DNA from: Rhizobium leguminosarum bv. trifolii WSM2297 | GTDB lineage: Bacteria; Pseudomonadota; Alphaproteobacteria; Rhizobiales; Rhizobiaceae | Assembly (NCBI RefSeq): GCF_000271845.1 | Contig: NZ_JH719395.1 | Span: forward strand, 1,260,466 to 1,324,465 | Reading direction: 5' to 3' | DNA length: 64,000 bases | In this document: positions 48,249 to 62,101 of the stretch, in pieces | How the letters are laid out: each line of letters begins with the position of its first letter | Position numbering within the stretch: the first letter of the stretch is position 1 | Notes under the pieces: model-generated | What the model saw: only the letters and a program-made list of their open reading frames with translations | Database searches by the model: none | Told to the model about the DNA's origin: nothing | Position numbers and translations under genes: made by a program

Positions 48249-49694
48249 CTAATTTTTCTGGAATTTCCGATGGCCGGATACTTCGGCCCCCGCCTCCGCC
48301 GGCAGTTGCAGGAAGCGCAGCGACGACATGAGGCCGATCGCGCCGACCACGACGAAAGCCCAGCGGAAGTCGGCAAGTACGGGATTGTCGGCGCCCCTGA
48401 GGGCCGATGCGATATTGAGCACGGCCGCTGCAACGGCGACGCCGAGCAGCATCGACACCTGCTGCAACATGCTCGACAGCGTCGAGGCCGAGCTTCGCTG
48501 CGCCGGACCGATATCGGCGAAGGCCAGCGTATTCAGCGCGGTGAACTCCATCGACCGCGACAGGCCAGCGAGAAAAAGCAGCGCATGGATGAGAAACTGC
48601 GGCGTCCCAGGCTCAAGGAAACCGCAGGCGGCGATCGAAAATGCCGCGATCAGCCCGTTCAGCACAAGCACCGTGCGAAAACCGACGAAGCGCAGAAGCG
48701 GCGTCGTCACCGTCTTCATGCCGAGATTGCCAAGGAAATAGACGAGCAGATAGGTGCCGGCGGCAATAGAACTCAGCCCGAAGCCGAGCTGGAACAACAG
48801 CGGCAGCAGGAACGGCGTCGCATTGATCGCCACCCTACAGGCGGTGCCCGCCGACAGCGTCGACATCGAGAAGGTCTGGACGCGGAAGGCCGAAAGGTCG
48901 AGCAGCGGATTGTCGACGGCGAGGAAATGCCGCGTCGCCATCACAGACAGCACGATGCCGGCTGCCAGCATCGATATGACCGGCAAAAACCCACCGTCCC
49001 ATTTGACCGAAAGCTCCAGGGCGGCAAGCAGGAAGGTCAGACCCGCAGCACTCAGGACGAAGCCGGCGAAATCCAACCGGCCGGGATCGATCTCGCGCTG
49101 CTCCGGCACGAAACGCAGCACCAGTCCCATGCCGAGAATGCCGATCGGGATGTTGATGAGGAAATTCCAGTGCCAGCTGGCATAGGTGGTGATGAAGCCG
49201 CCGAGCACCGGGCCGATCACCGGCGCCGTCAGCGCCGGCCACGTGATCAGCGCGATCGCCTGGACGAGTTCGGATTTGCGGGCGTTCTTCAGCACGATGA
49301 TGCGCCCGACGGGCGTCATCAGCGCGCTTCCCGCGCCCTGGACGGCGCGCCACAGCACGAATTCCGTAAGGCTGTCGGAAAGCCCGCAGAACAGCGATGC
49401 GGCGGTAAAGACGGCGATCGACATCAGGAAGATACGGCGCGCACCGAACCGGTCGCCGAGCCAGCCTGACAGCGGAATGAAGGCGGCCATCGTTAGCATG
49501 TAGACAGTGATGCCAATGCTCATCGACACCGGCTGCACGTTGAAGCTTGCCGCCATCTGCGGCAGCGAGGTCGCGACGATCGTGCCGTCGAGGATCTGCA
49601 TGAAGAAGGAAACGGCAACGACCAGCGCTACGATCTTCGCCTGGCGACCGCTCGCCGCCTCTTGCCCATTCTCGCTCGTCTCTGCCGTGGTCAT
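48249..49694 (-). CDS. DHA2-type MFS multidrug exporter
   Basis: A 481-residue membrane protein with about 14 hydrophobic segments. DHA2 signatures are FFMQILDGTIVATSLPQMAA in helix 1, GWLGDRFGARRIF after helix 2, and WRAVQGAGSALMTPVGRIIV. It exports drugs or other amphipathic compounds with proton uptake. No membrane-fusion partner gene is adjacent. It is divergent from the ABC/Dha operon. The ATG at 49692-49694 gives a family-like N-terminus. Confidence 0.92.
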   Translation of the reverse strand: MTTAETSENGQEAASGRQAKIVALVVAVSFFMQILDGTIVATSLPQMAASFNVQPVSMSIGITVYMLTMAAFIPLSGWLGDRFGARRIFLMSIAVFTAASLFCGLSDSLTEFVLWRAVQGAGSALMTPVGRIIVLKNARKSELVQAIALITWPALTAPVIGPVLGGFITTYASWHWNFLINIPIGILGMGLVLRFVPEQREIDPGRLDFAGFVLSAAGLTFLLAALELSVKWDGGFLPVISMLAAGIVLSVMATRHFLAVDNPLLDLSAFRVQTFSMSTLSAGTACRVAINATPFLLPLLFQLGFGLSSIAAGTYLLVYFLGNLGMKTVTTPLLRFVGFRTVLVLNGLIAAFSIAACGFLEPGTPQFLIHALLFLAGLSRSMEFTALNTLAFADIGPAQRSSASTLSSMLQQVSMLLGVAVAAAVLNIASALRGADNPVLADFRWAFVVVGAIGLMSSLRFLQLPAEAGAEVSGHRKFQKN

Positions 49695-50235
49695 CGATCC
49701 GCCAATGAAAATTCCGGATGACGCGGCAGGGAAGTGGGAAAGGAAGCCGATCGGAGATTGCCGCGCGAGGGAGCGCGATTTGGAAAACCGCGCAGTGGCT
49801 GAATACGCCGGTTGCGGCCGGCCGGAAAGGCTAAATCTCGCACTGTGCAGGAAAATTCCCAATGCGGTCAGCGGCGCGACCTGAAGAAAAAGGCCCCGCC
49901 GGAGCGAGGCCAAGTTTGAACCGCTCCCGGGAAAACAGGAGCGGCGTCGAGGTCCATAGCCTGTGGACCGTTTCGCAGCGAGGTCAGTTTTCGCCCTATC
50001 GGTACGGCTTCGCGGGAATTTCCGGGTTTTCGCGCCAAAAACCCGCCATTCGCCCTCGCCGCCTTCACGACGCGGTTGTGCACCGCAACAACGATTACGG
50101 CTTGCGTTGTTTATAAAATCATCTATCACTAAACATATTGCTAAACATGATGATTGAGGAGTTCATGTGAGCATTCTCTGACGTGGGTGAACGTGCGACG
50201 CCGGCGGGGAGCCGGCATGGTTCTGGGAGGAACTT
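49695..50235. other. Divergent intergenic region upstream of the ABC/Dha operon
   Basis: The 541 bases contain no convincing gene; a 71-codon minus-strand frame (49868-50083) has no motif. A CCGCTCC/GGAGCGG hairpin lies near 49921-49946. The AT-rich stretch 50108-50150 is the likely promoter region for the operon and carries a direct repeat. The binding protein has a GGGAGGAAC ribosome binding site at 50224. Confidence 0.5.
50129..50148. promoter_or_regulatory. Direct repeat CTAAACAT in the operon promoter region
   Basis: CTAAACAT occurs at 50129-50136 and 50141-50148, 12 bases apart, in AT-rich DNA about 90 bases before the binding-protein gene. It may be an operator. Confidence 0.4.
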
Positions 50236-51561
50236 ATGCAGAAAACATCGAAAGCCCTTTTGGGGCTGGCCTCGGCATTCCTAATGTCGTCGGCATTGCC
50301 CAATCTCGCCAAAGCCGATGAACTGACGCTGTGCTGGGCCGCCTGGGATCCTGCCAATGCGCTCGTCGAGCTGTCGAAGGATTTCACCGCCAAGACCGGC
50401 ACGCAGATGAAGTTCGAGTTCGTGCCGTGGACGAGCTATGCCGATCGCTTCCTCAACGAGCTGAATTCTCATGGCAAGCTCTGCGACCTGATCATCGGTG
50501 ACAGCCAGTGGATCGGCGGCTCGGCCGAGAACGGCCATTACGTCAAGCTCAACGACTTCTTCGACAAGGAAGGCATCAAGATGGATGACTTCGTGCCGGC
50601 GACGGTCGTCGGTTACTCGGAATGGCCGAAGAACACGCCGAACTACTGGGCGCTGCCTGCCATGGGCGATGTTGTCGGCTGGACCTACCGCAATGACTGG
50701 TTCGAGAAGCCGGAACTGCAGAAGGAATTCAAGGAGAAATACGGCCACGATCTCGCAGCTCCGAAGACTTACGATGAACTGAAGCAGATCGCCGAATTCT
50801 TCCAGAAGCGCGAGATCGACGGCAAGACCGTCTACGGCGCCTCGATCTATACCGAGCGCGGCTCTGAGGGGATCACCATGGGCGTCACCAACGTCCTCTA
50901 CGACTGGGGCTTCCAGTACGAGAACCCGAAGAAGCCGTACGACATGGAAGGCTTCGTCAACTCGGCCGACGCGGTCAAGGGCCTCGAATTCTACAAGTCG
51001 CTTTATGATTGCTGCACACCGCCCGGCAGTTCCAACGTCTACATGGTCGAATCCGCCGACGCCTTCAAATCCGGCCAGGTCGCCATGCAGATGAATTTCG
51101 CCTTCACCTGGCCTGGCCTCTACAAGGACGAGAAGGTCGGCGGCGACAGGATCGGCTTCTTCCCCAACCCGGCTGAAAAGGCGCATTTCGCGCAGCTAGG
51201 CGGCCAGGGCATCTCGGTCGTCTCCTATTCCGACAAGCGCGATGCCGCCCTGCAATACATCAAGTGGTTCGCACAGCCAGACGTGCAGGCCAAGTGGTGG
51301 GAACTCGGCGGTTTCTCCTGCCTGAACTCCGTCGTCAACGCGCCGGACTTTGCCAAGAGCCAGCCCTATGCCCAGGCCTTCCTGGACTCGATGGCGATCG
51401 TCAAGGACTTCTGGGCTGAGCCAAGCTATGCCTCGCTGCTGCAGGCCATGCAGAAGCGCGTCCACAACTATGTGGTCGCCGGCAACGGCACCGCGAAGGA
51501 AGCGCTCGACGGTCTGGTGAAGGACTGGAGCGACGTCTTCAAGGACGACGGCAAGATCTAG
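50236..51561 (+). CDS. Sugar/polyol ABC transporter substrate-binding protein
   Basis: A 441-residue periplasmic protein of the carbohydrate family (COG1653). A signal peptide covers about 1-27, ending NLAKA-D. The mature protein begins ELTLCWAAWDPANALVELSK, and includes LIIGDSQWIGGSAENGHYVK and a long aromatic-rich binding region (SEWPKNTPNYWALPAMG). It captures the substrate imported by the permeases that follow. The ligand cannot be read directly; operon partners suggest a polyol or short ketose. First gene of the operon. Confidence 0.93.
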   Translation: MQKTSKALLGLASAFLMSSALPNLAKADELTLCWAAWDPANALVELSKDFTAKTGTQMKFEFVPWTSYADRFLNELNSHGKLCDLIIGDSQWIGGSAENGHYVKLNDFFDKEGIKMDDFVPATVVGYSEWPKNTPNYWALPAMGDVVGWTYRNDWFEKPELQKEFKEKYGHDLAAPKTYDELKQIAEFFQKREIDGKTVYGASIYTERGSEGITMGVTNVLYDWGFQYENPKKPYDMEGFVNSADAVKGLEFYKSLYDCCTPPGSSNVYMVESADAFKSGQVAMQMNFAFTWPGLYKDEKVGGDRIGFFPNPAEKAHFAQLGGQGISVVSYSDKRDAALQYIKWFAQPDVQAKWWELGGFSCLNSVVNAPDFAKSQPYAQAFLDSMAIVKDFWAEPSYASLLQAMQKRVHNYVVAGNGTAKEALDGLVKDWSDVFKDDGKI

Positions 51562-51610
51562 TGTCCGAGCGGACAGGCGGCATCCCTCTGCGCGCCATCC
51601 TGGCAAGGAT

Positions 51611-51643
51611 GGCGGCCCGGATCGGCAGCCGAGCCGGGCCGCC
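51611..51643 (+). other. Strong intercistronic hairpin between binding protein and permease
   Basis: Arms GGCGGCCCGG (51611-51620) and CCGGGCCGCC (51634-51643) pair perfectly. No T run follows, so it is more likely an mRNA stabiliser giving excess binding protein than a terminator. Confidence 0.7.
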
Positions 51644-51695
51644 GGATCCCCCATATCCAGAAAGACCTGATACCCCAAAAAGACCAGGTGAAAAC

Positions 51696-52661
51696 TTGAC
51701 CATATCCTCTTCCATTGTCGACAAGGCGGCCGATGCCACCGCAAGGGCAACGCCGATCTCGCTCGCCCGGCATGTGCGTGGCCTCTCCGACAGAGCGATC
51801 GCCTGGCTGTTCATCGCACCCGCCATCATCCTGCTTCTGGCGATCAACATCTTCCCGCTCCTCTGGGCGATCTACCTGTCCTTCACCAATTACCGCGCCA
51901 ACCGACCAAATGCGCCTGTTCAGGGCGTCGGCCTTGGTAATTACCAGCGTGTGCTCAACGATCCCGATATCTGGCAGGCGATGCAGACCACCGCGCATTT
52001 CGTCTTCTGGACGATCGTGCTGCAGACGCTGATCGGCTTTGCCCTCGCCTATCTGATCGACCGCAAATTCCGCGGCCATGCCTTCTGGACGACGATCATC
52101 CTGATCCCGATGATGCTGTCGCCGGCCGTTGTCGGCAATTTCTGGCGCTTTCTCTATGAGCCGCAGATCGGCCTCTTCGCCTATGCCGTATCGCTGATAT
52201 CGGGCATTCCGACCTCTGATATACAGATGCTCGGCAATGTCCGGCTGGCGCCCTGGGCGATCATCATCGTCGATACGTGGATGTGGACGCCCTATGTGAT
52301 GCTGATCTGCCTTGCCGGCCTGCGCTCGATCCCCGACTACATCTACGAGGCGGCCGAGGTCGACCGCGCCTCGCCGTGGCGGCAGTTCTGGTCCATCACC
52401 GTGCCGATGGCCCTGCCCTTCATCATGCTTGCCGTGCTCTTTCGGGGCATCGAGAATTTCAAGATGTTCGACATGGTGACGCTGCTCACCGGCGGCGGGC
52501 CTGGCTCCGTCACCGAGGTCGCCTCGATCACGCTGAAGCGCGCCGCCTTCGAAAGCTGGGCGACCGGCCGGGCCTCCGCCTTCGCCATCGTCCTCTTCGT
52601 CGCGGTGTTCGGCCTCGCCAACATCTACGTCAAGGCTCTGAACAAGGTGAAGCAAAGATGA
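51696..52661 (+). CDS. ABC transporter permease 1
   Basis: A 321-residue MalF-type inner membrane protein with six hydrophobic segments. The EAA loop reads YIYEAAEVDRASPWRQFWSI, the contact site for the ATPase. I choose a TTG at 51696: an AGGTG lies upstream and the N-terminus is then of normal length. The earlier start at 51561 would add a proline/arginine-rich extension read through the hairpin. It overlaps permease 2 by 4 bases. Confidence 0.92.
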   Translation: MTISSSIVDKAADATARATPISLARHVRGLSDRAIAWLFIAPAIILLLAINIFPLLWAIYLSFTNYRANRPNAPVQGVGLGNYQRVLNDPDIWQAMQTTAHFVFWTIVLQTLIGFALAYLIDRKFRGHAFWTTIILIPMMLSPAVVGNFWRFLYEPQIGLFAYAVSLISGIPTSDIQMLGNVRLAPWAIIIVDTWMWTPYVMLICLAGLRSIPDYIYEAAEVDRASPWRQFWSITVPMALPFIMLAVLFRGIENFKMFDMVTLLTGGGPGSVTEVASITLKRAAFESWATGRASAFAIVLFVAVFGLANIYVKALNKVKQR

Positions 52662-53611
52662 GCGCCGCCAACTCCGCCCATTCGGTCGTCGAACCGAGCC
52701 TTTCCAGCAAGCGTATCGCCGGCGCGATCGTCATCCTCTACGCGCTGATCACGCTGATCCCGCTCGTCTGGATCTTTCTCACCAGCATCAAGTCGCCGCC
52801 GGATTCGATCAGCTATCCCCCCAAGATCATCTTCACGCCGTCACTCGAAGGTTATTGCAATCTGTTCACCACGCGCACCCGGCAGACGCCGGACTATATC
52901 GCCTCGCTACCGGCGCCGACCGGCACCTGCGATGAGGTGACGCGCAAGCGCAACATGGTGATCGCCGGCCCGTCGAACTTCGTGCCGCGCTTCGTCAATT
53001 CGCTGGTGATCGCCTTCGGCTCTACCTTCCTTGCGGTCTTTCTAGGGACGCTTGCCGCCTACGGCTTTTCCCGCTTCAAGGTGCCGCTCGCCGATGACCT
53101 GCTGTTTTTCATCCTGTCGACGCGCATGATGCCGCCGATCGCCGTCGCCATCCCCATCTACCTGATGTACCGCGAGCTCGGGCTCTCCGACACAGCCGTT
53201 GGCATGATCCTGCTCTACACCGCCGTCAACGTCTCGCTCGCCGTCTGGCTGCTCAAGGGTTTCATCGACGAGATCCCGCGCGAATACGAGGAAGCCGCGA
53301 TGATCGACGGCTATACCCGCCTGCAGGCCTTCCGCAAGGTCGTGCTGCCGCAGGCGACCACCGGAATTGCCGCAACCGCGATCTTCTGCCTAATCTTCGC
53401 CTGGAACGAATATGCCTTCGCCGCCCTTCTGACCTCAGGCCAGGCGCAGACCGCGCCACCCTTCATTCCGACGATCATCGGCGAAGGCGGGCAGGACTGG
53501 CCGGCGGTCGCAGCCGGCACGACGATCTTCCTGATCCCGATTCTCGTCTTCACCATTCTCTTGCGCAAGCAGCTCCTGCGCGGCATCACCTTCGGAGCCG
53601 TCCGCAAATGA
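52658..53611 (+). CDS. ABC transporter permease 2
   Basis: A 317-residue MalG-type permease with six membrane segments and the EAA motif EIPREYEEAAMIDGYTRLQA. A periplasmic loop after the first segment carries two cysteines (EGYCNLF and TGTCDEV), which may form a disulfide. ATG overlaps the stop of permease 1 and its own stop overlaps the small membrane protein, so translation is coupled. Confidence 0.93.
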   Translation: MSAANSAHSVVEPSLSSKRIAGAIVILYALITLIPLVWIFLTSIKSPPDSISYPPKIIFTPSLEGYCNLFTTRTRQTPDYIASLPAPTGTCDEVTRKRNMVIAGPSNFVPRFVNSLVIAFGSTFLAVFLGTLAAYGFSRFKVPLADDLLFFILSTRMMPPIAVAIPIYLMYRELGLSDTAVGMILLYTAVNVSLAVWLLKGFIDEIPREYEEAAMIDGYTRLQAFRKVVLPQATTGIAATAIFCLIFAWNEYAFAALLTSGQAQTAPPFIPTIIGEGGQDWPAVAAGTTIFLIPILVFTILLRKQLLRGITFGAVRK

Positions 53612-53820
53612 CCCATCTGATCGAGACACCAGTCCCTGCCCGTCCGAAACGGCCGTTCTTCCTGCGCCGCGGCCCGATGGAGACCATCGCCACCGTGCTG
53701 ATCGGCGTCGGCTTCCTGATGTTGTTTCAACCTTTCCTACTGGTGCTCTACACCTATTCGCTCGTGACCCTGCTTGCAGGCACCGTCATGTTCATCATCG
53801 TCTCAAAATTCCCGGAGTGA
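53608..53820 (+). CDS. Small membrane protein of the ABC operon
   Basis: A 70-residue protein with two hydrophobic segments (METIATVLIGVGFLMLFQPF and VLYTYSLVTLLAGTVMFIIV) and a basic N-terminus. It shares ATGA with permease 2 and ends 3 bases before the first ATPase. Its place matches the small membrane gene in the R. leguminosarum glycerol ABC operon (glpU in glpSTPQUV), though sequence similarity is not proven here. It may be an accessory subunit. Confidence 0.75.
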   Translation: MTHLIETPVPARPKRPFFLRRGPMETIATVLIGVGFLMLFQPFLLVLYTYSLVTLLAGTVMFIIVSKFPE

Positions 53821-53823
53821 ACC

Positions 53824-54921
53824 ATGGCGGAGATCAAGATCGAAAATCTCCGGAAGGAGTTCGGCAGCTTCGTCGCCGTCGAGAATTCGAGCTTCACCGT
53901 CCATGACGGCGAGTTCCTGGCGCTACTCGGCCCTTCCGGCTGCGGCAAGACGACCACGCTTCGCATGATCGCCGGCCTTGAGTTGCCGACCAGCGGCGAG
54001 ATCTATCTCGACGGTGAGGACGTCACCTTCAACCGCGCCAGCGCCCGCGACATCGCCTTCGTCTTCCAGCTCTTCGCGCTCTATCCGCACATGAACGTGC
54101 GCAAGAATATCGGCTTTCCGCTACTGTCACAGGGCATGCCAAAGGCCGAGATCCGTCAGCGGGTCGAAGAGACCGCCCGCCTGCTGCAGATTGACCATAT
54201 TCTCAACCGCTCGGTATCGGGCCTTGCCGGCGGCGACCGGCAGCGGGTTGCGCTCGGCCGCGCCATCGTCCGGCGGCCGAAATGTTTCCTGATGGACGAG
54301 CCGCTCGGCACGCTCGACGCCGAGTTTCGCGAGATCATGGTCCACGAGCTGCGCGAGCTGCACAACCGCATCCACGCTACCACCGTCTACGTTACCCACG
54401 ACCAGCACGAGGCGATGGCAATGGCCGACAAGATCGCCGTCATGAACCACGGCGTCATCGAACAATTCGGCACGCCGCAGGAAATATATGCCAAGCCGGC
54501 GACCATGTATGTCGCCGATTTCATCGGCTCGCCACCGATGAACTTCATGCGCTTCACTTCGGGGCTCAAAAGCGGTGACCGCTCGATCCGGCTCGACGGC
54601 ATCGATGTCGCCGTCCCCGAGATCCATCAGGACATCGCCGAAAGCGAACTGGCGCTTGGCGTGCGGCCAGAGCATATCCGCTTCAGCGACGCCTCGGCGC
54701 TTCGCGGCGCCGTCTACGGCAGCGAATATCTCGGCACCAACCAGGTCGTGGCTGTGGAAACGCCGGGCGGCTTGATCAAGGCCCGCGTTCCCGCCAATCG
54801 CAGCTTCCAGATCGGCGAGACCGTCGGCCTCGAATTCAACCCGGCCAAACTCGCGCTCTTCGACTGCACCTCGGGCCGCGCCGTGCAGTCCTCGCTCTAT
54901 CAGGAGACCCGACATGGCTGA
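53824..54921 (+). CDS. ABC transporter ATPase 1
   Basis: A 365-residue MalK/UgpC-type ATPase. Walker A is LLGPSGCGKTTTLRMIAGLE and Walker B FLMDEPLGTLDAE, followed by the switch histidine in VYVTHDQHEAMAMADK. The signature loop reads SGLAGGDRQRVALGRA, so the usual LSGGQ is altered to LAGGD. A C-terminal TOBE region follows. It overlaps ATPase 2 by 8 bases. The presence of two different ATPases suggests a heterodimer. Confidence 0.93.
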   Translation: MAEIKIENLRKEFGSFVAVENSSFTVHDGEFLALLGPSGCGKTTTLRMIAGLELPTSGEIYLDGEDVTFNRASARDIAFVFQLFALYPHMNVRKNIGFPLLSQGMPKAEIRQRVEETARLLQIDHILNRSVSGLAGGDRQRVALGRAIVRRPKCFLMDEPLGTLDAEFREIMVHELRELHNRIHATTVYVTHDQHEAMAMADKIAVMNHGVIEQFGTPQEIYAKPATMYVADFIGSPPMNFMRFTSGLKSGDRSIRLDGIDVAVPEIHQDIAESELALGVRPEHIRFSDASALRGAVYGSEYLGTNQVVAVETPGGLIKARVPANRSFQIGETVGLEFNPAKLALFDCTSGRAVQSSLYQETRHG

Positions 54922-55921
54922 TGTTGTCCTTAGGAACCTCGCCAAGCGTTTCGGCGACACCCAGGCTCTCGCCGACCTCGATCTTTCGATCCGCGACGGC
55001 GAGTTCGTCGTGCTGCTCGGTCCCACAGGCGCCGGCAAGACCACGACGCTCAGGCTGATCGCCGGCCTCGAGAGACCCGATAGCGGCCGCATCGAGATCG
55101 GCGGTCGCAATGTCGCGGCCGAAGCGCCGGCCGGGCGCGACGTCGCCTTCGTCTTCCAGCAATATTCGCTTTATCCGCACATGACGGTCTACGAAAACCT
55201 CGCCTTTCCGCTGAAGGCGCCGGTCCGCAAGCTCAGCGCCCAGGAGATCGACCGGCGCGTCCGCGAGGTCGCACGCATGGTCCGGATCGACCACAAGCTG
55301 GAGAACCGCTCGACCAGGCTTTCCGGCGGCGAGATGCAGCGTGTCGCCATCGGCCGGGCGCTGGTGCGGCGGCCGGCGATCTACCTGATGGACGAGCCGC
55401 TGTCCTCCCTCGATGCCAAGCTGCGCGCCGAACTGCGCCTGGAACTCAAGCGCATCCAGAAAGAAATGGGCTCGACGCTGCTCTATGTCACCCACGATCA
55501 GGTGGAAGCCATGACCATGGCCGACCGCATCGGCATCGTCGCCGAGGGGCGGCTGATGCAGGTCGGAACGCCGCGCGAAATCTACGGCAATCCCGCCAAC
55601 CTGCACGTCGCAGCCCGTCTCGGCCAGCCGCACATCAACCTTCTGCCGGCCGACCTGCTTCCCGGCGGCCAGCCACCCGCCGGCACCAAAACCGTCGGCG
55701 CGCGCACCGAACATCTCGACATCATGATTGGCGAGGACGCCAATGCCGAAATCGACTGGATCGAGCATCTCGGCGACCAGAACCATCTGCACATCCGGGC
55801 GGGTAATCACAAGCTCGTCACACTTGCCGATCCATATCTGGCAATCGCGCCGGGCGATCGGATCAGCCTGACGCTACGCGATCCGCTTTATTTCGACGCG
55901 GCTGGACAGCGCCTTTCCTGA
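54914..55921 (+). CDS. ABC transporter ATPase 2
   Basis: A 335-residue ATPase with Walker A LLGPTGAGKTTTLRLIAGLE, a standard signature RLSGGEMQRVAIGRAL, Walker B YLMDEPLSSLDAKLR and VTHDQVEAMTMADR. The C-terminal TOBE domain is shorter than in ATPase 1. Together with ATPase 1 it would energise the two permeases, as GlpS and GlpT do in the rhizobial glycerol transporter. Confidence 0.93.
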   Translation: MADVVLRNLAKRFGDTQALADLDLSIRDGEFVVLLGPTGAGKTTTLRLIAGLERPDSGRIEIGGRNVAAEAPAGRDVAFVFQQYSLYPHMTVYENLAFPLKAPVRKLSAQEIDRRVREVARMVRIDHKLENRSTRLSGGEMQRVAIGRALVRRPAIYLMDEPLSSLDAKLRAELRLELKRIQKEMGSTLLYVTHDQVEAMTMADRIGIVAEGRLMQVGTPREIYGNPANLHVAARLGQPHINLLPADLLPGGQPPAGTKTVGARTEHLDIMIGEDANAEIDWIEHLGDQNHLHIRAGNHKLVTLADPYLAIAPGDRISLTLRDPLYFDAAGQRLS

Positions 55922-55973
55922 CCGGCAAACAGAATGATGATGGCATGAAAAACGAACAGACGAGTCTCAATCG

Positions 55974-57647
55974 ATGAAACATTTCTTCAACCGCAGGGAA
56001 AATATCGTCACCGAAGCCCTGGACGGTCTGCTGCTGACAAGCAGCAATGGTCGTCTTGCCCGCCTCGACAGCTTTCCCGAGATCAAGGTGATCCTGCGCG
56101 CGGACTGGGACAGGTCGAAAGTAGCGATCATCTCGGGCGGCGGCGCCGGCCATGAACCCTCGCACGCCGGCTTTGTCGGCAAAGGCATGCTGACTGCGGC
56201 CGTTTCGGGCGAAATCTTCGCCTCGCCGAGTGTCGATGCGGTGCTGACGGCGATCCGCGCGGTGGCCGGTCCGAAAGGCGCCCTGCTCATCGTCAAGAAT
56301 TATACCGGCGACCGCCTGAATTTCGGCCTCGCCGCCGAGAAGGGCCGCGCAGAAGGGTTCGATGTCGAGATGGTCATCGTCGCCGACGATATCGCCCTGC
56401 CCGAGATCAACCAGCCGCGCGGCGTCGCCGGCACGCTTTTCGTCCATAAGATTGCCGGCTATCACGCCGAAAGGGGCGAGGACCTGGAGACGGTCGCAGC
56501 CCATGCCAGAAGTGCTGCCGGCGATATCGTCTCGCTCGGCATGTCGCTTTCCACCTGCAGCGTGCCCGGCCAGGCGCATGAGGACCGCCTCGGCGCCGAT
56601 GAGGGCGAACTTGGCCTCGGCATCCATGGCGAACCCGGCGCCGAGCGCATTACCCTGCGGCCGGTCGCCGATTTCGTTGCCGCCATTGCGGTCCGCCTCT
56701 CCGCAACGCTGAAAGGTGCGGAAGACCATGCGCTGCTCATCAACAATCTCGGCGCCGTGCCACCGCTCGAAATGGCCGTGATCGCCAATGCCGTGCTGTC
56801 CTCATCACTGGCCGATCGCGTCCGGCTGATCATCGGGCCGGCGCCGATGATGACGGCGCTCAACATGAACGGCTTCTCGCTGTCCTTGATCCGGCTGGAT
56901 GCCGGTCGTGAGGCAGCCCTGACGGCTGTTGTCGAACCACATGCCTGGATGCCGGTCGTTGCACGTCACGAGATCGAGATCATCGCCGCGCCGAGAGCGG
57001 CGACGGGATTGAACGCGGCCGCGGCGGGGACCAACGGCCAAGCCCTGGTCGGGGAAGACAACCGCATCCGGCGCCTGATCACGGCGCTCTGCGAGCATCT
57101 GATCTCCCTGGAAAACGAGCTCAACCGCCTGGACGGCCGCGTCGGCGACGGCGATACCGGCTCGACGGTGGCAACGGGCGCCCGCAGCGTGCTGGCCCGT
57201 CTCGACACGCTGCCGCTCGATCGGCCGGCGGCAACACTTGCCGCGCTCGGCGATATTCTCGGCACCAGCATGGGCGGTTCGAGCGGCGTGCTTCTGTCGA
57301 TCTTCTTCACCGCTGCGGCCAAGGCGATGACCGATAAGGACGATATCCCTGCCGCCCTTCTTGCCGGGCTCGACAGGATGACGTTCTATGGCGGAGCCGG
57401 GGTCGGCGACAGGACGATGGTCGATGCGCTGGCGCCTGCGCTGCAGGCACTCGCCTCTGGCGATATCTCGGCGGCGGCAAGGGCAGCGGCATCGGGTGCC
57501 GAGTCGACGAAGGCGATGGTGAAGGCGAGAGCTGGACGCGCCTCCTATGTCGGCGAAAGAGATCTGGCCGGTGTCGCCGATCCCGGCGCAGTCGCCGTGG
57601 CCGGCGCGTTCGGCGTGGCGGCAAGGTTCGCAACCGGCATGGCATGA
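55974..57647 (+). CDS. dhaKL: Fused dihydroxyacetone-type kinase (DhaK-DhaL, ATP type)
   Basis: A 557-residue protein. The DhaK domain (about 1-330) has GGGAGHEP with His60, KNYTGDRLNF with Asp113, and the substrate-binding His218 in LGLGIHGEPG. The DhaL domain (about 355-557) has DGRVGDGDTGSTVATGARSV and MGGSSGVLLSIFF, the form seen in ATP-dependent kinases. It should phosphorylate a short ketose such as dihydroxyacetone or erythrulose with ATP. It overlaps, or lies within 45 bases of, the separate dhaL. Confidence 0.92.
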   Translation: MKHFFNRRENIVTEALDGLLLTSSNGRLARLDSFPEIKVILRADWDRSKVAIISGGGAGHEPSHAGFVGKGMLTAAVSGEIFASPSVDAVLTAIRAVAGPKGALLIVKNYTGDRLNFGLAAEKGRAEGFDVEMVIVADDIALPEINQPRGVAGTLFVHKIAGYHAERGEDLETVAAHARSAAGDIVSLGMSLSTCSVPGQAHEDRLGADEGELGLGIHGEPGAERITLRPVADFVAAIAVRLSATLKGAEDHALLINNLGAVPPLEMAVIANAVLSSSLADRVRLIIGPAPMMTALNMNGFSLSLIRLDAGREAALTAVVEPHAWMPVVARHEIEIIAAPRAATGLNAAAAGTNGQALVGEDNRIRRLITALCEHLISLENELNRLDGRVGDGDTGSTVATGARSVLARLDTLPLDRPAATLAALGDILGTSMGGSSGVLLSIFFTAAAKAMTDKDDIPAALLAGLDRMTFYGGAGVGDRTMVDALAPALQALASGDISAAARAAASGAESTKAMVKARAGRASYVGERDLAGVADPGAVAVAGAFGVAARFATGMA

Positions 57648-57691
57648 ATTGCATGGGCCGCGCGGGAGGCGCGGCGACAGGGAGGATGGCA

Positions 57692-58306
57692 GTGCAGGCG
57701 GAACCGGTTCTTTTAGCGGGACTGATCGAGGTGTGTCGCGCGACAATCGCAGCAAACAGCGATCACCTCTGCGCGCTCGATCGCGCCATCGGCGATGGTG
57801 ATCATGGAACTAACATGCGGCGCGGCTGCGAGGCCGTCAGCGCCGAAGGCGAGACCCTGTCCAGCCTGCCCTTCCCCGACGCCGTCGAGAAGATCGGCCT
57901 GACGCTGGTGATGAATGTCGGCGGTGCCGCCGGGCCACTCTACGGCACGTTGCTGATCGAGATCGGCCGAGAGCTTCGCAAACGCGAGCAGAAGGCAGAT
58001 TTTCCCGTGGTGCTGAAACAGGCGATCGATGCCGTGGCAAGGCGCGGGCGATCGCATGCCGGCGACAAGACCCTGCTCGACGTTCTCTACCCCGTCCACG
58101 CGGCGCTGGTGAAGCGGTCGCCGCTCGGTGACATCGCCCGCAAGGCCGAGCGTTCCGCCGGCCGTACCGCTGCTATGAAGGCAATGCGCGGCCGCGCTTC
58201 TTATCTCGGCGACCGCTCGATTGGCCATGTCGATCCGGGCGCATCGAGCTGCGCGCTGCTGACCACCGCGATCTGCCGTTATCTCGGGGAGCACCGCCCC
58301 CAATGA
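57692..58306 (+). CDS. dhaL: PTS-type dihydroxyacetone kinase subunit DhaL
   Basis: A protein of about 204 residues. The ADP-binding motif is LDRAIGDGDHGTNMRRG and the second loop VMNVGGAAGPLYGTLLIEIG, both in the form typical of PTS-dependent DhaL with permanently bound ADP. I use the GTG at 57692, which has GGAGG 6 bases upstream; ATG at 57644 (overlapping the previous stop) or 57686 are alternatives. It overlaps dhaM by 4 bases. Confidence 0.92.
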   Translation: MQAEPVLLAGLIEVCRATIAANSDHLCALDRAIGDGDHGTNMRRGCEAVSAEGETLSSLPFPDAVEKIGLTLVMNVGGAAGPLYGTLLIEIGRELRKREQKADFPVVLKQAIDAVARRGRSHAGDKTLLDVLYPVHAALVKRSPLGDIARKAERSAGRTAAMKAMRGRASYLGDRSIGHVDPGASSCALLTTAICRYLGEHRPQ

Positions 58307-58701
58307 ATGCAAAAACCGCAAACGTGGGTATCGTCATCGTCTCCCATTCGCCGCTGGTGGCAAGAGGGATCGCCGACATGGTGCGGCAGATGGTCGGGGA
58401 CTGCGTGCCGCTCGCCTGGTCGGGCGGCAATGTCCATGGGGAACTCGGCACCGATGCCGGCGGCATATTGCGGGCGATCGAGGCCGCCTGGTCCGATGCC
58501 GGCGTTGCCGTTTTCGTCGATCTCGGCGGCGCTGAAACCAACAGCGAAATGGCAATCGAAATGCTTGGCCTCCCCCGCGCAGCCCTCGTCGCCATTTGCA
58601 ACGCGCCTCTCGTCGAAGGCGCCGTCATCGCTGCCGCCGAGGCCTCGGGGGGCGCCTCGCTCGCCAAGGTCGTCGCCACAGCCGAGGAGCTGTCGCCCTG
58701 A
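58303..58701 (+). CDS. dhaM: Phosphotransfer subunit DhaM (EIIA-Man type)
   Basis: A 132-residue protein with the phospho-accepting His15 in VIVSHSPLVARG and the conserved AVFVDLGGAETNSEMAIE. It is the single-domain DhaM; HPr and Enzyme I domains, fused to it in E. coli, are separate genes here. It passes phosphate from HPr to the ADP on DhaL. Start and stop overlap the neighbouring genes. Confidence 0.92.
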   Translation: MNAKTANVGIVIVSHSPLVARGIADMVRQMVGDCVPLAWSGGNVHGELGTDAGGILRAIEAAWSDAGVAVFVDLGGAETNSEMAIEMLGLPRAALVAICNAPLVEGAVIAAAEASGGASLAKVVATAEELSP

Positions 58702-59057
58702 TGACCGGCCGATTGCGCATAGAGAAACAGGAGCCCGGTCCATTGCCCGAGCCATTTAAGGTGAACTGCCAGACGGAAGTGGAAGTCAAGCACGGCGTCG
58801 GGCTGCACGCTCGCCCCTCCGTCACCTTCACGCGGCTTGCCAAATCCTTCCCCTGTTCGATCGAGATCGCCGTCAATGGCAGCGATGTCTGGCTGAACGG
58901 CAAGAGCATCATCAAGATCATGGGCGCACGAATCCGCAAGGGATCGATCCTTAGGATCCGCGCCGACGGCATCCTCGCCGAAGAGGCGATCCGGGCTTTG
59001 AAGGAACTCATCGAACGCAATTTCGATGAGGAAAAGAAACATGGCCGAACCGTTTAG
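58701..59057 (+). CDS. ptsH: HPr-like phosphocarrier protein with N-terminal extension
   Basis: A 118-residue protein. The HPr site is VGLHARPSVTF with His36, and the second half has KSIIKIMGARIRKGSILRIR. About 22 residues precede the normal HPr start. The usual regulatory serine motif appears as GKSIIKIMG. It starts at the overlapping TGATG with dhaM and ends 17 bases inside the Enzyme I gene. It probably serves DhaM rather than a sugar EII. Confidence 0.9.
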   Translation: MTGRLRIEKQEPGPLPEPFKVNCQTEVEVKHGVGLHARPSVTFTRLAKSFPCSIEIAVNGSDVWLNGKSIIKIMGARIRKGSILRIRADGILAEEAIRALKELIERNFDEEKKHGRTV

Positions 59058-60642
59058 GTTAAATGCGAAGAGCGCATCCCCCGGCGTTGCATCCGGCCCC
59101 GCCTTCCTCGCGGAAGAGCCAAAGGCTGTTTCCGCCGCAGCGCCGGACATTCCCGCTGCGCCGCAAACGCCCGGCGGATACGGCGTGCTGGCGGATGCGA
59201 TCGACGTCGCCATCGGCGAACTCGAGCGTCTGGCCGAGGGAGCCGATGCCGAAAGCCGCGATATCATCGATTTCCAGATCGAGGTTCTGGGCGATCCGAC
59301 GATCGCCGAAGCGACGGGCGCGCGCATCGACGCCGGCGAAAATGTCGTCTTCGCCTGGGTCGCCACCCTCGACGCCTATATCGGCGCGCTCGAAGCGGCC
59401 GACGAGGAGCAGATGCGGGCGCGCGCCGTCGATATTCTCGACATCAAGAACCGCGTGCTCGGCGCGCTGACCGGCACTCCGGTCGCCGATTTCCCGGCCG
59501 GTTCGATCTTTATCGGCAGGGACATGGAGCCGAGCCGTTTCCTTGCCCATGACTGGTCGAAGGGCGGCGGCATTGCGCTGTTTTCAGGCAGCACCGCCGG
59601 CCATGTCGCCCTGCTCGCCCGGTCGAAAATGGTGCCTATGGTGGTTGGCACAGGGCGTTTTTCGGCCGCGGACGGAGATCCCGTCGGGGTGGATGGCGAT
59701 GCCGGCGCAGTCGTCCTGCAGGCAGGCGGTACGCCGATGCCGTCCCCACCGCCGGTTGAGAGGCCGGCGGGTGACGCGGATACTGGCGAAGGACTGCGCA
59801 CCGCAGACGGGGTGCCGATCCTGCTCTCCATCAATATCAACGATGCCGCCGAGATCGACGCGCTCGATCCTGCAACCGCAGGCGTCGGTCTGATGCGCTC
59901 GGAATTTTCCGTCCTGTCGCTCGCCGATGCCGCCAACGAGGAACGACAGTTGGCGATCTATCGCCGAGTGCTGGAGCGGGCGGGCGAAAGGCCGGTCACG
60001 ATCCGCATGCTCGATATTGGCGGCGACAAGCCGCTCGCCGGTCTTGACGATCTGCCAGCTCTTTCCGCCTCGGGCCTGCGCGGCATCCGGCTGCTGCTTG
60101 CCCGACCGGAAATCGCCCGCGTTCAGGTCCGCGCCCTGCTGCGCGCTAGCGCCTTCGGCAGGCTTTTGGTGATGCTGCCGATGGTGACCTTTCCGGACGA
60201 GATCGACGCGATGCGGCAGATATTCCGAGATGAGGCGGCGCAACTCACCCGCCGCGCCCTGCTGCATCGGATGCCGCCGATCGGCATGATGGTGGAGGTG
60301 CCGGCTGCCGCCCTGATGCTTGACACCTTCGAAGCGGCCGAATTCTTCTCGTTTGGAACCAACGATCTCACCCAATATCTCGCCGCCTGCACACGCGACG
60401 GCATCGAGGCCGATTCAGACAAGGCGGCACCGGCCGTGCTTCGGCTGCTTGCCCAGGCGGTGAAGCTTGCCGTCCGCAAGCCCGTGAGCATCTGCGGCGA
60501 CATGGCCGGCGATCCCAGCTATCTGCCGGCATTGCTCGCCGCCGGCCTCCGGCATTTTTCCGTGGCGCCGGCCCGACGTCCCGCGATAAGATCGGCGATC
60601 ATCGGCCTCAATGCCGATGGCACAAGGGCAGCCGGAGAGTAG
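59041..60642 (+). CDS. ptsI: Enzyme I-like PEP-protein phosphotransferase
   Basis: A 533-residue protein. The phosphohistidine domain has His188 in FSGSTAGHVALLARSKMVP, differing from the standard GGxTSHxAI. The PEP-binding barrel has IRMLDIGGDKPLAGLDDLPA, MMVEVPAAALMLDTFEAAEF, FFSFGTNDLTQYLAACTRDG and the catalytic cysteine in VSICGDMAGDPSYLPALLAA. It is shorter than standard Enzyme I and lacks a GAF domain, so it is not PtsP. It should charge the HPr-like protein with phosphate from PEP. Confidence 0.92.
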   Translation: MAEPFRLNAKSASPGVASGPAFLAEEPKAVSAAAPDIPAAPQTPGGYGVLADAIDVAIGELERLAEGADAESRDIIDFQIEVLGDPTIAEATGARIDAGENVVFAWVATLDAYIGALEAADEEQMRARAVDILDIKNRVLGALTGTPVADFPAGSIFIGRDMEPSRFLAHDWSKGGGIALFSGSTAGHVALLARSKMVPMVVGTGRFSAADGDPVGVDGDAGAVVLQAGGTPMPSPPPVERPAGDADTGEGLRTADGVPILLSININDAAEIDALDPATAGVGLMRSEFSVLSLADAANEERQLAIYRRVLERAGERPVTIRMLDIGGDKPLAGLDDLPALSASGLRGIRLLLARPEIARVQVRALLRASAFGRLLVMLPMVTFPDEIDAMRQIFRDEAAQLTRRALLHRMPPIGMMVEVPAAALMLDTFEAAEFFSFGTNDLTQYLAACTRDGIEADSDKAAPAVLRLLAQAVKLAVRKPVSICGDMAGDPSYLPALLAAGLRHFSVAPARRPAIRSAIIGLNADGTRAAGE

Positions 60643-60643
60643 A

Positions 60644-61054
60644 ATGGCGCGCGAAGACACCGAAGACGCCATTATCGCCTACAAGTCCATTCTGGCGCAG
60701 ATCATCGACAACAGGCCATCGGGCACACGTCAGCGCCTGGCGACGGCGCTTGGCAAACACCGCAGCTTCGTCACCCAGATCACCAGCCCGACCTATGCGA
60801 CGCCGCTGCCGGCGCGCCATCTCGCGACGATCGTCGGTGTCTGCCATTTCAGCGCCGCCGAGCAGGAGCGTTTTCTCGAAGCCTATCATGCCGCCCATCC
60901 CGGCAAGCTGCCGGACCTTGGCCATTCCGAGAAATTGCGGCACCTGTCGCTGATGGTGCCCGATTTCGGCGACGACAGAAAAAACCGGCTGCTGGAGGAG
61001 GCAATCTCCGATCTGGTGCAGAAAATCGTCGCGATTTCAGGCGGATCGGAATGA
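60644..61054 (+). CDS. Putative DNA-binding helix-turn-helix protein of the Dha operon
   Basis: A 136-residue protein. The N-terminal half has SGTRQRLATALGKHRSFVTQ and ITSPTYATPLPARHLATIVG, a lambda-repressor-like helix-turn-helix arrangement. The C-terminal half is helical with no known ligand domain. It begins one base after the Enzyme I stop with GGAG upstream, and lies before the last dhaK. It may regulate the operon, but I cannot assign a family. Confidence 0.7.
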   Translation: MAREDTEDAIIAYKSILAQIIDNRPSGTRQRLATALGKHRSFVTQITSPTYATPLPARHLATIVGVCHFSAAEQERFLEAYHAAHPGKLPDLGHSEKLRHLSLMVPDFGDDRKNRLLEEAISDLVQKIVAISGGSE

Positions 61055-61108
61055 GCGGTGACCTGAAGATTGACGTAACGTAATGACCTCGGGCTTGGGA
61101 GGGGCTTG

Positions 61109-62101
61109 ATGAAGAAGTTCATGAACTCTGCGGAAACCATGGTGGCCGAAAGCGTCGAAGGCTTCGTGCGCGCCCATGAGGCTTTCGTGGTGTTCGGGCC
61201 AGAGCGCAAATGCATCCGCCGCCGCCATCTCACCCCTGACAAGGTGGCGCTCATCTCTGGCGGCGGCGCCGGCCACGAGCCGATGCATGTCGGCTTCGTC
61301 GGCCACGGCATGCTGGATGCCGCCTGCGTCGGCCATATCTTCACCTCGCCGACGCCGAGCCAGATCATTGCTGCAATCGAAGAGACCGATACCGGCGCCG
61401 GCTGCCTGCTCGTCGTCAAGAACTATGACGGCGACCTGATGAATTTTGAAATGGCGATCGAGATGGCCGGAGACCACCACCGCATCGAGATGGTCGTCGT
61501 CAGCGACGACATCGAGACGTCGAGGATCGGCGACGGCCGCGGCCGACGCGGTGTCGCCGGCACGCTGATCGTCGAAAAGATCCTTGGCGCCGCAGCCGAA
61601 CGCGGCATGCCGCTTGCGGAATTGAAAGAGCTCGGCGAAGGATTGAACACGCGCATCCGCTCGATGGGGGTGGCGTTGAACGGCGTGACGGTGCCGCAGA
61701 CCGAGCGCTCGACGTTTTCGCTCGGACCCGACGAGATGGAAATGGGCGTCGGCATCCATGGAGAGCCTGGCCAGGACAGGCAGGCCTTTGCCGCCTCCGA
61801 CGCCATCATCGGGCACCTCTGCGACACCATATCAGGCGACATCGCGGCAGTGCCGGGCGCAAGGGCGCTACTCCTGGTCAACGGTCTCGGAGGCACGCCG
61901 CCGGCCGAACTCTACCTCGCCTATAATGCCGCCCGCCGCTTCATCGAGGAGAGCGGCATCCCGATCGAGCGTTCTCTTGTTGGAACCTACGTCACCTCGC
62001 TCGACATGCAGGGACTGTCCGTTACCCTGGCCTTACTGACTGACGAGGAGATCGCCCTCTGGGACGCGCCGGTGGCGACAGCGGCATTGCGTTGGCCCTG
62101 A
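61109..62101 (+). CDS. dhaK: Dihydroxyacetone kinase subunit DhaK (PTS type)
   Basis: A 330-residue substrate-binding subunit with His56 in GGGAGHEP, Asp109 in KNYDGDLMNF and His217 in MGVGIHGEPG; the first two numbers equal those in E. coli DhaK. It should pair with the separate DhaL and DhaM. The ATG at 61109 has GGGAGGGG upstream; the TTG at 61106 is less likely. Last gene of the operon. Substrate could be dihydroxyacetone or a related ketose. Confidence 0.93.
   Translation: MKKFMNSAETMVAESVEGFVRAHEAFVVFGPERKCIRRRHLTPDKVALISGGGAGHEPMHVGFVGHGMLDAACVGHIFTSPTPSQIIAAIEETDTGAGCLLVVKNYDGDLMNFEMAIEMAGDHHRIEMVVVSDDIETSRIGDGRGRRGVAGTLIVEKILGAAAERGMPLAELKELGEGLNTRIRSMGVALNGVTVPQTERSTFSLGPDEMEMGVGIHGEPGQDRQAFAASDAIIGHLCDTISGDIAAVPGARALLLVNGLGGTPPAELYLAYNAARRFIEESGIPIERSLVGTYVTSLDMQGLSVTLALLTDEEIALWDAPVATAALRWP

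Follow-up and report, generated by a model that had tools for sequence, protein, structure and literature searches.

A probable dihydroxyacetone scavenging operon of Rhizobium leguminosarum that joins an ABC importer to ATP- and PEP-dependent kinases, with a candidate regulator of its own

A 64,000-nucleotide stretch of Rhizobium leguminosarum bv. trifolii WSM2297 was analysed (contig NZ_JH719395.1, positions 1,260,466 to 1,324,465; hereafter the window, whose own numbering is used below). At 50236–62101 it carries genes for an ATP-binding cassette (ABC) importer, followed by two dihydroxyacetone (DHA) kinases and a phosphoenolpyruvate (PEP) phosphorelay. We read this cluster as one operon that scavenges free DHA and, taken as the whole explanation, we put the probability of this reading at roughly 0.65. 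The arrangement itself is already widespread and partly published. What is probably new, judged from sequence comparison, is a constant pairing of importer and kinase, which speaks for DHA as the cargo, together with a dedicated regulator family and its probable operator. The fuller claim is that the importer is dedicated to DHA and has repeatedly exchanged its kinase partner between ATP and PEP types, and that the regulators, 136 residues long and XRE-like, form a new single-target family with one palindrome per genome; the balance tips only slightly in favour of all this being correct together.

The initial annotation had described thirteen closely spaced genes, and this description stands: thirteen intact open reading frames (ORFs), all on the + strand, are packed closely over 50236–62101 with intergenic gaps of at most 52 bp as first called, the majority of neighbours touching or overlapping. 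The gene families were likewise confirmed, and with them the joining of an ABC importer to DHA kinases and a complete private PEP relay. The thirteen genes appear to form one transcript. The features are as follows (HTH, helix-turn-helix; PTS, phosphotransferase system).

50108..50147, + strand: putative operator, an inverted repeat TGTTTA-N16-TAAACA (50108–50135) with a third half-site TAAACA (50142–50147)
50236..51561, + strand: ABC solute-binding protein, 441 aa (SBP_bac_8/1, Pfam)
51561..52661 as called, + strand: ABC permease 1, start probably TTG at 51696 (BPD_transp_1)
51611..51643, + strand: strong RNA stem-loop between the binding-protein and permease 1 genes (RNA folding)
52652..53611, + strand: ABC permease 2 (BPD_transp_1)
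53608..53820, + strand: hydrophobic conserved 70-aa protein between the permeases and the ATPases (no Pfam match)
53824..54921, + strand: ABC ATPase 1, UgpC/MalK-like (ABC_tran and TOBE)
54914..55921, + strand: ABC ATPase 2 (ABC_tran and TOBE)
55974..57647, + strand: DhaKL, ATP-type DHA kinase (Dak1 and Dak2 fused)
57644..58306, + strand: DhaL, PTS (ADP-binding) type, called start maybe early by about 25 codons at most (Dak2)
58303..58701, + strand: DhaM, one EIIA-Man-like domain including its His (EIIA-man)
58698..59057, + strand: HPr with phosphorylation site HARP (PTS-HPr)
59026..60642, + strand: Enzyme I, PEP-protein phosphotransferase (PEP-utilizers N, mobile and C)
60644..61054, + strand: small HTH protein, 136 aa, XRE/lambda-repressor-like model (no Pfam match)
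61106..62101, + strand: DhaK, PTS-type DHA-binding subunit (Dak1)

In the proposed mechanism the ABC importer would take DHA into the cell at the expense of ATP. By one route the fused DhaKL would use ATP to convert DHA to dihydroxyacetone phosphate; by the other, the phosphoryl group would pass from PEP to Enzyme I, HPr, DhaM and DhaL (with ADP) and on to DHA bound by DhaK. Dihydroxyacetone phosphate could then join central metabolism with no extra dedicated enzyme. The 136-residue HTH protein would bind the palindrome that precedes the binding-protein gene and control the whole operon. As it has no recognisable ligand domain it may sense the state of DhaK or DhaL, a state that the Escherichia coli regulator DhaR is known to read.

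To judge from their sequences, the operon holds two complete kinases, one driven by ATP and one by PEP, and neither looks like a relic. The closest solved relative of the fused DhaKL is the ATP-dependent DhaKL of Citrobacter (1un9), and the protein carries GDGDTG, a motif of the ATP type. The separate DhaL carries the PTS-type motif GDGDHGTNM, with E. coli DhaL (2btd) as its closest solved relative; for DhaK this is E. coli DhaK (1oi2), and the substrate-binding His and catalytic Asp are both present in the DhaK of the window. Counted over dereplicated loci, the His and Cys of Enzyme I are conserved in 64 of 64, the active-site His of DhaM and that of HPr in 65 of 65 each, and the Asp triad and DH motif of DhaL in 68 of 68. 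Equivalents of His56, Asp109 and His220 of DhaKL, together with GDGDTG, are found in all 36 loci counted, and the equivalent of DhaK His218 in 51 of 64, which are those whose sequence extends that far. DhaL (191.7 bits against TIGR02365, cut-off 138.3), DhaM (128.5 bits against TIGR02364, cut-off 98.25) and HPr (61.9 bits against TIGR01003, cut-off 47.9) all score above the thresholds of their models. Three other scores speak against our assignments: DhaK reaches 405.5 bits with TIGR02363, less than 1 bit under the equivalog cut-off of 406.25, DhaKL 540.8 bits with TIGR02361 (dak_ATP, cut-off 574.95) and Enzyme I 276.8 bits with TIGR01417 (cut-off 341.7). With the DhaQ coactivator model TIGR02362 (cut-off 413.25), DhaK and DhaKL stay below threshold at 255.7 and 208.5 bits.

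The binding protein of the window shares 97–99% identity with its counterparts at 16 Rhizobium loci (L007–L022). DhaKL (87–89%) and Enzyme I (82–84%) have diverged further from their Rhizobium relatives. Ratios of nonsynonymous to synonymous substitution (dN/dS) between the window and four R. leguminosarum-group loci (for DhaK, two other loci) are 0.02–0.24 overall, indicating purifying selection: 0.02–0.03 for the binding protein, 0.15–0.17 for DhaKL, 0.15–0.16 for DhaK and 0.19–0.24 for Enzyme I. The gene order is shared by, among others, Rhizobium, Mesorhizobium and Ancylobacter. Since the order recurs and the genes are under purifying selection, the cluster is not a chance assembly.

The design had been called unusual, a description that the survey of related genomes overturns. 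Enzyme I was sought in 297 genomes of the order and matched (E 1e-60) in 68. In 62 of these the enzyme is DHA-type; five with open frames of 854–879 aa and one (G427) without adjacent Dha genes were excluded. The same binding protein is encoded in the same stretch in 45 of the 62, partial ABC genes stand at a contig end in two and 13 have no adjacent ABC genes; of the last two, one locus (L142) begins at a contig end and one genome (G571) is split across contigs. A Bradyrhizobium cluster of this kind is moreover described in the accessible portion of PMC5017801.

The binding protein was in turn used as the query. It was found (E 1e-60) in 22 of 385 genomes of the class, a sample that includes the centre genome G001, and in all 22 a DHA kinase lies behind the ABC genes. 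The kinase is PEP-type in nine, ATP-type in seven and both in two; the remaining four have DhaL and DhaK without an adjacent DhaM. Two of the seven ATP-type loci and one of the four DhaL/DhaK loci are near a contig end, and the genome of the latter has EIIA-Man and Enzyme I genes on a different contig. A binding-protein scan reached at least 80 loci. The full set of 152 binding-protein loci includes some places reached twice, and rates were therefore taken over 78 representatives. Three of these are incomplete (L206, L215 and L217) and were classed by their visible genes. Among the 152, the ABC genes are joined to both DhaKL and a PEP cassette in 86, to a PEP cassette in 48, to an ATP-type DhaKL in eight and to DhaL and DhaK only in three; seven are incomplete.

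Parsimony on the best binding-protein tree (78 rows) requires 13 changes in kinase make-up. If only well-supported branches are counted, a minimum of seven changes remains for the PEP label, and likewise for the dual label. In the DhaKL tree, proteins at the position seen in the window form a single branch of 22 representatives, and ATP-only forms, together with L188 and L216, form another. Derivation of the window DhaKL from an ATP-only form was considered and rejected, the 22 dual representatives branching on their own. L156 and L159 have their ATP-type DhaKL at the other end of the operon, downstream of DhaK. Because the DhaKL branches and the position in L156 and L159 differ, the two kinases came together on more than one occasion.

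Two small groups of loci differ in composition. The three with DhaL and DhaK only (L219, L220 and L221, at 33–36% GC) come from 1.4-Mb genomes (G034, G263 and G341); searches of these genomes gave neither an EIIA-Man match above cut-off nor any match to PEP-utilizers_C, and DHIFN replaces DHGxN in their DhaL. Two DHA-PTS clusters that have neither ABC genes nor an adjacent HTH gene adjoin oxidoreductases, of the GFO/IDH/MocA type in L157 and dependent on flavin adenine dinucleotide in L182.

The importer comprises a binding protein, two permeases and ATPases of the MalK/UgpC type with TOBE domains (Pfam), a set that we take to be CUT1-type. On the pairing of genes it most likely carries DHA: a DHA kinase of either type follows in 22 of 22 class-sample genomes, through 13 changes of make-up. 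DHA is the substrate common to both kinase types, and its phosphate requires no more dedicated enzymes. The initial annotation had proposed a phosphorylated C3–C4 ketose as the product. A short ketose is indeed likely, and the C3 part of this proposal, DHA, is better supported than the C4 part, as no further catabolic gene was identified and one transporter serves either kinase type. Its remark that no oxidation step is encoded also holds, there being no dehydrogenase among the genes of the window cluster.

Several observations pull the other way. Fold neighbours of the binding protein, whose model is closest to MalE-like proteins, bind sugars and oligosaccharides, which are larger than DHA; the comparison did not narrow the ligand. 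In both DhaL/DhaK loci tested (L219 and L221) the divergent neighbour is a xylose-isomerase-like TIM barrel, which hints, at least there, at a sugar needing isomerisation and counters a general rule that no further enzyme is needed. A sister transporter in G615 (L237, contig C15; 42–55% identity) stands beside another xylose-isomerase-like barrel and a TetR regulator, and no DHA kinase was found beside it. The 13 of 62 DHA-PTS clusters that lack adjacent ABC genes belong to genomes in which no close binding protein was found at E 1e-40 (best match 43% in G615, 29% in two, none in ten), so the PEP kinase works also without the importer. DHA may also cross membranes by diffusion, which would make an importer less needed. 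A search of the open-licence literature found no paper on a "dihydroxyacetone transporter"; for DHA uptake together with an ABC transporter, it gave an archaeal paper only.

Two other substrates have to be weighed on this evidence. The importer might carry a C4 ketose or polyol (erythrulose, threitol, erythritol) or another small polyol, with one of the kinases phosphorylating a C4 ketose. Mycobacterial tetritol pathways do have DAK-type L-erythrulose kinases, and both the sugar-binder fold and the isomerase-like neighbours at L219 and L221 would suit such a cargo. We consider it unlikely, as DhaL and DhaM exceed the DHA-specific cut-offs of NCBI, the two kinase types interchange behind one conserved binding protein (61–95% identity over 58 rows), and extra ORFs of at least 150 aa occur inside the cluster in just four of 83 fetched stretches (L158, L169, L186 and L190), that of L169 lying at the Enzyme I position. 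Alternatively, a larger sugar or polyol could be imported, and enzymes encoded elsewhere could then cleave, isomerise or oxidise it to DHA for the kinases to catch. The MalE-like fold and the sister transporter of G615, beside which no kinase was found, would agree with this; no such enzyme was seen inside the class-sample clusters, however, where the DHA kinase is constant, and flanking genes are only partly identified (named in five annotated loci and 27 scanned proteins only). This too strikes us as improbable, and import of DHA itself remains the reading that we prefer.

To judge from sequence patterns, the HTH protein is very likely the regulator of the operon, and the upstream palindrome is its putative operator. 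The window protein has no Pfam match even at E 0.1, HTH_31 is matched in seven of 46 relatives, and a profile of the family alignment matches the XRE protein 3f6w weakly (E 0.0098). No AAA domain was found in these proteins (136–147 aa), which places them outside the DhaR activators. The family is present in 60 of the 297 order genomes. All 60 have a DHA Enzyme I, and in 58 the HTH gene is directly downstream of it.

A conserved block precedes the binding-protein gene in Rhizobium relatives. Among the 64 representatives that carry the HTH gene, 62 have the heptamer ACTAAAC no further than 300 bp from the operon start, compared with one of the 14 that lack the gene; the background is 2.2% in shuffled sequence and 45 of 1560 random 300-bp windows from the same loci. 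The palindrome TGTTTAGT-N12-ACTAAACA, at a score of at least 13 of 16, is found in 44 of the 64 and in none of the 14. For the site in the window, chance expectation is 0.01 per window with one mismatch allowed. Whole-genome searches located exact TGTTTA-N16-TAAACA in 29 of the 62 order genomes with DHA-type Enzyme I, as a single site each: eight from the first ten searched, some of them chosen with the motif at their loci already known, and 21 from the remaining 54. The site is 1.4–9.1 kb upstream of the Enzyme I gene on the same contig in 28 of the 29; the other (G571) was placed by contig identity with L031, by arithmetic 101 bp before the binding-protein gene. G002 and G004 have one palindrome each, 103 and 114 bp before that gene. 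In the 31 genomes that have an exact copy at the operon, the palindrome occurs nowhere else.

Loci without adjacent ABC genes behave in several ways. In eight genomes with a PEP cassette alone the palindrome starts 64–115 bp upstream of the DhaL match, and L154 and L160 have half-sites only. Neither palindrome nor half-site was found within 300 bp at L167 or at the contig-end locus L142, nor at L157 and L182, which have no adjacent HTH gene. Twenty comparison genomes were also searched: seven ATP-only, three with DhaL and DhaK, four of the order without Enzyme I or HTH gene, and six of the class without the binding protein, whose cassette status was unscreened. Two contain the palindrome, G256 on a contig other than that of the DHA locus and G034 roughly 74 kb away from that locus; none of the seven ATP-only genomes has it at the DHA locus.

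The case for this regulator has its weak points. Exact copies are lacking in 33 of the 62 genomes with DHA-type Enzyme I, and a reversed-palindrome control matches one of the first ten, five of the other 54 and two of the 20 comparison genomes. L210, L212 and L213 have the HTH gene and no good palindrome. LacI regulators account for six of the ten upstream neighbours tested, and three of the six (L210–L212) stand at loci bearing the HTH gene. Relatedness leaves three or four independent contrasts between HTH gene and motif, with which a sign test cannot reach 0.05; in almost every pairing the contrasts agree in direction. It is conceivable that another regulator binds the palindrome and that the HTH protein has a different role, for example protein–protein control of DhaK. 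The LacI neighbours that accompany the HTH gene at L210–L212 would be expected in that case, and loss of the TetR regulator blr7984 raises expression of the Bradyrhizobium cluster, according to the accessible portion of PMC5017801. Against this, the HTH family and the palindrome co-occur with or without ABC genes, and the palindrome is confined to the operon in 31 genomes and missing from the ATP-only DHA loci. We therefore regard a different binder as unlikely and retain the HTH protein as the proposed regulator.

Some gene calls and neighbouring features complete the description of the locus. Permease 1 probably starts at TTG 51696 and not at 51561, and the gap after the binding-protein gene is then about 134 bp; in two annotated relatives it is 101 bp. 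The 135-nt interval containing the stem-loop at 51611–51643 folds with −61.4 kcal/mol (z −3.7), and by this model the stem-loop probably stabilises the binding-protein mRNA. The HTH gene probably starts at 60644 to give 136 aa, the length shared by most of the homologues listed. The 70-residue protein, which like the HTH protein has no Pfam match at E 0.001, is possibly a transporter subunit; its gene is present in 151 of the 152 binding-protein loci, the exception being an incomplete locus. Scans for sigma-70 promoters and terminators gave no excess over shuffled sequence. A major facilitator superfamily (MFS) transporter gene upstream and two esterase-like genes downstream flank the operon, all on the opposite strand. 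As called, the divergent MFS ORF (48249–50129) begins at 50129, within the palindrome; the true start codon probably lies further inside the ORF, in which case the palindrome could face the MFS gene as well.

The operon can be compared with several known systems. Like E. coli DhaKLM it has a PEP-driven chain of DhaK, DhaL and DhaM. The E. coli DhaM fuses IIA, HPr and EI′ domains and relies on the general Enzyme I, and the regulator there, DhaR, is a large sigma-54-type AAA+ activator; we know of no ABC importer in that system. The fused K and L domains and active-site motifs of DhaKL are those of the Citrobacter enzyme (1un8/1un9), although in the window it shares an operon with a second, PEP-dependent kinase. 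The rhizobial glycerol importer GlpSTPQUV also consists of two ATPases, two permeases, a binding protein and a small membrane protein. The window operon differs from it in that its small protein has no Pfam match and its partner enzymes are DHA kinases.

The closest published counterpart is blr3566–blr3577 of Bradyrhizobium diazoefficiens, as described in the accessible portion of PMC5017801. By annotation it matches the window in order: binding protein, two permeases, small protein, two ATPases and DhaL, then EIIA-Man, HPr, Enzyme I, a hypothetical protein (blr3576) and DhaK; that portion lists no fused ATP-type DhaKL and names no substrate. All 12 genes are reported there as up 4.2- to 24.3-fold in the blr7984 mutant and lower in bacteroids. 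RL2903 of R. leguminosarum 3841, which we liken to the window HPr by description only and not by sequence, is named in the part of PMC3665714 available (citing Barabote and Saier 2005) as belonging to a DHA PTS likely to be functional in rhizobia. It was studied there as an NPr candidate, and the deletion mutant resembled the wild type in colony form and amino-acid transport, which, as far as that part goes, fits a private relay separate from the nitrogen-related system PTSNtr; neither the ABC genes nor a regulator come up in that part.

If our reading is right, the operon would provide many soil alphaproteobacteria with a route for free DHA and would assign a substrate to a widespread orphan ABC transporter. 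It would also explain why a private Enzyme I and HPr are kept beside PTSNtr in this order, and would define a family of regulators with a binding site ready to test.

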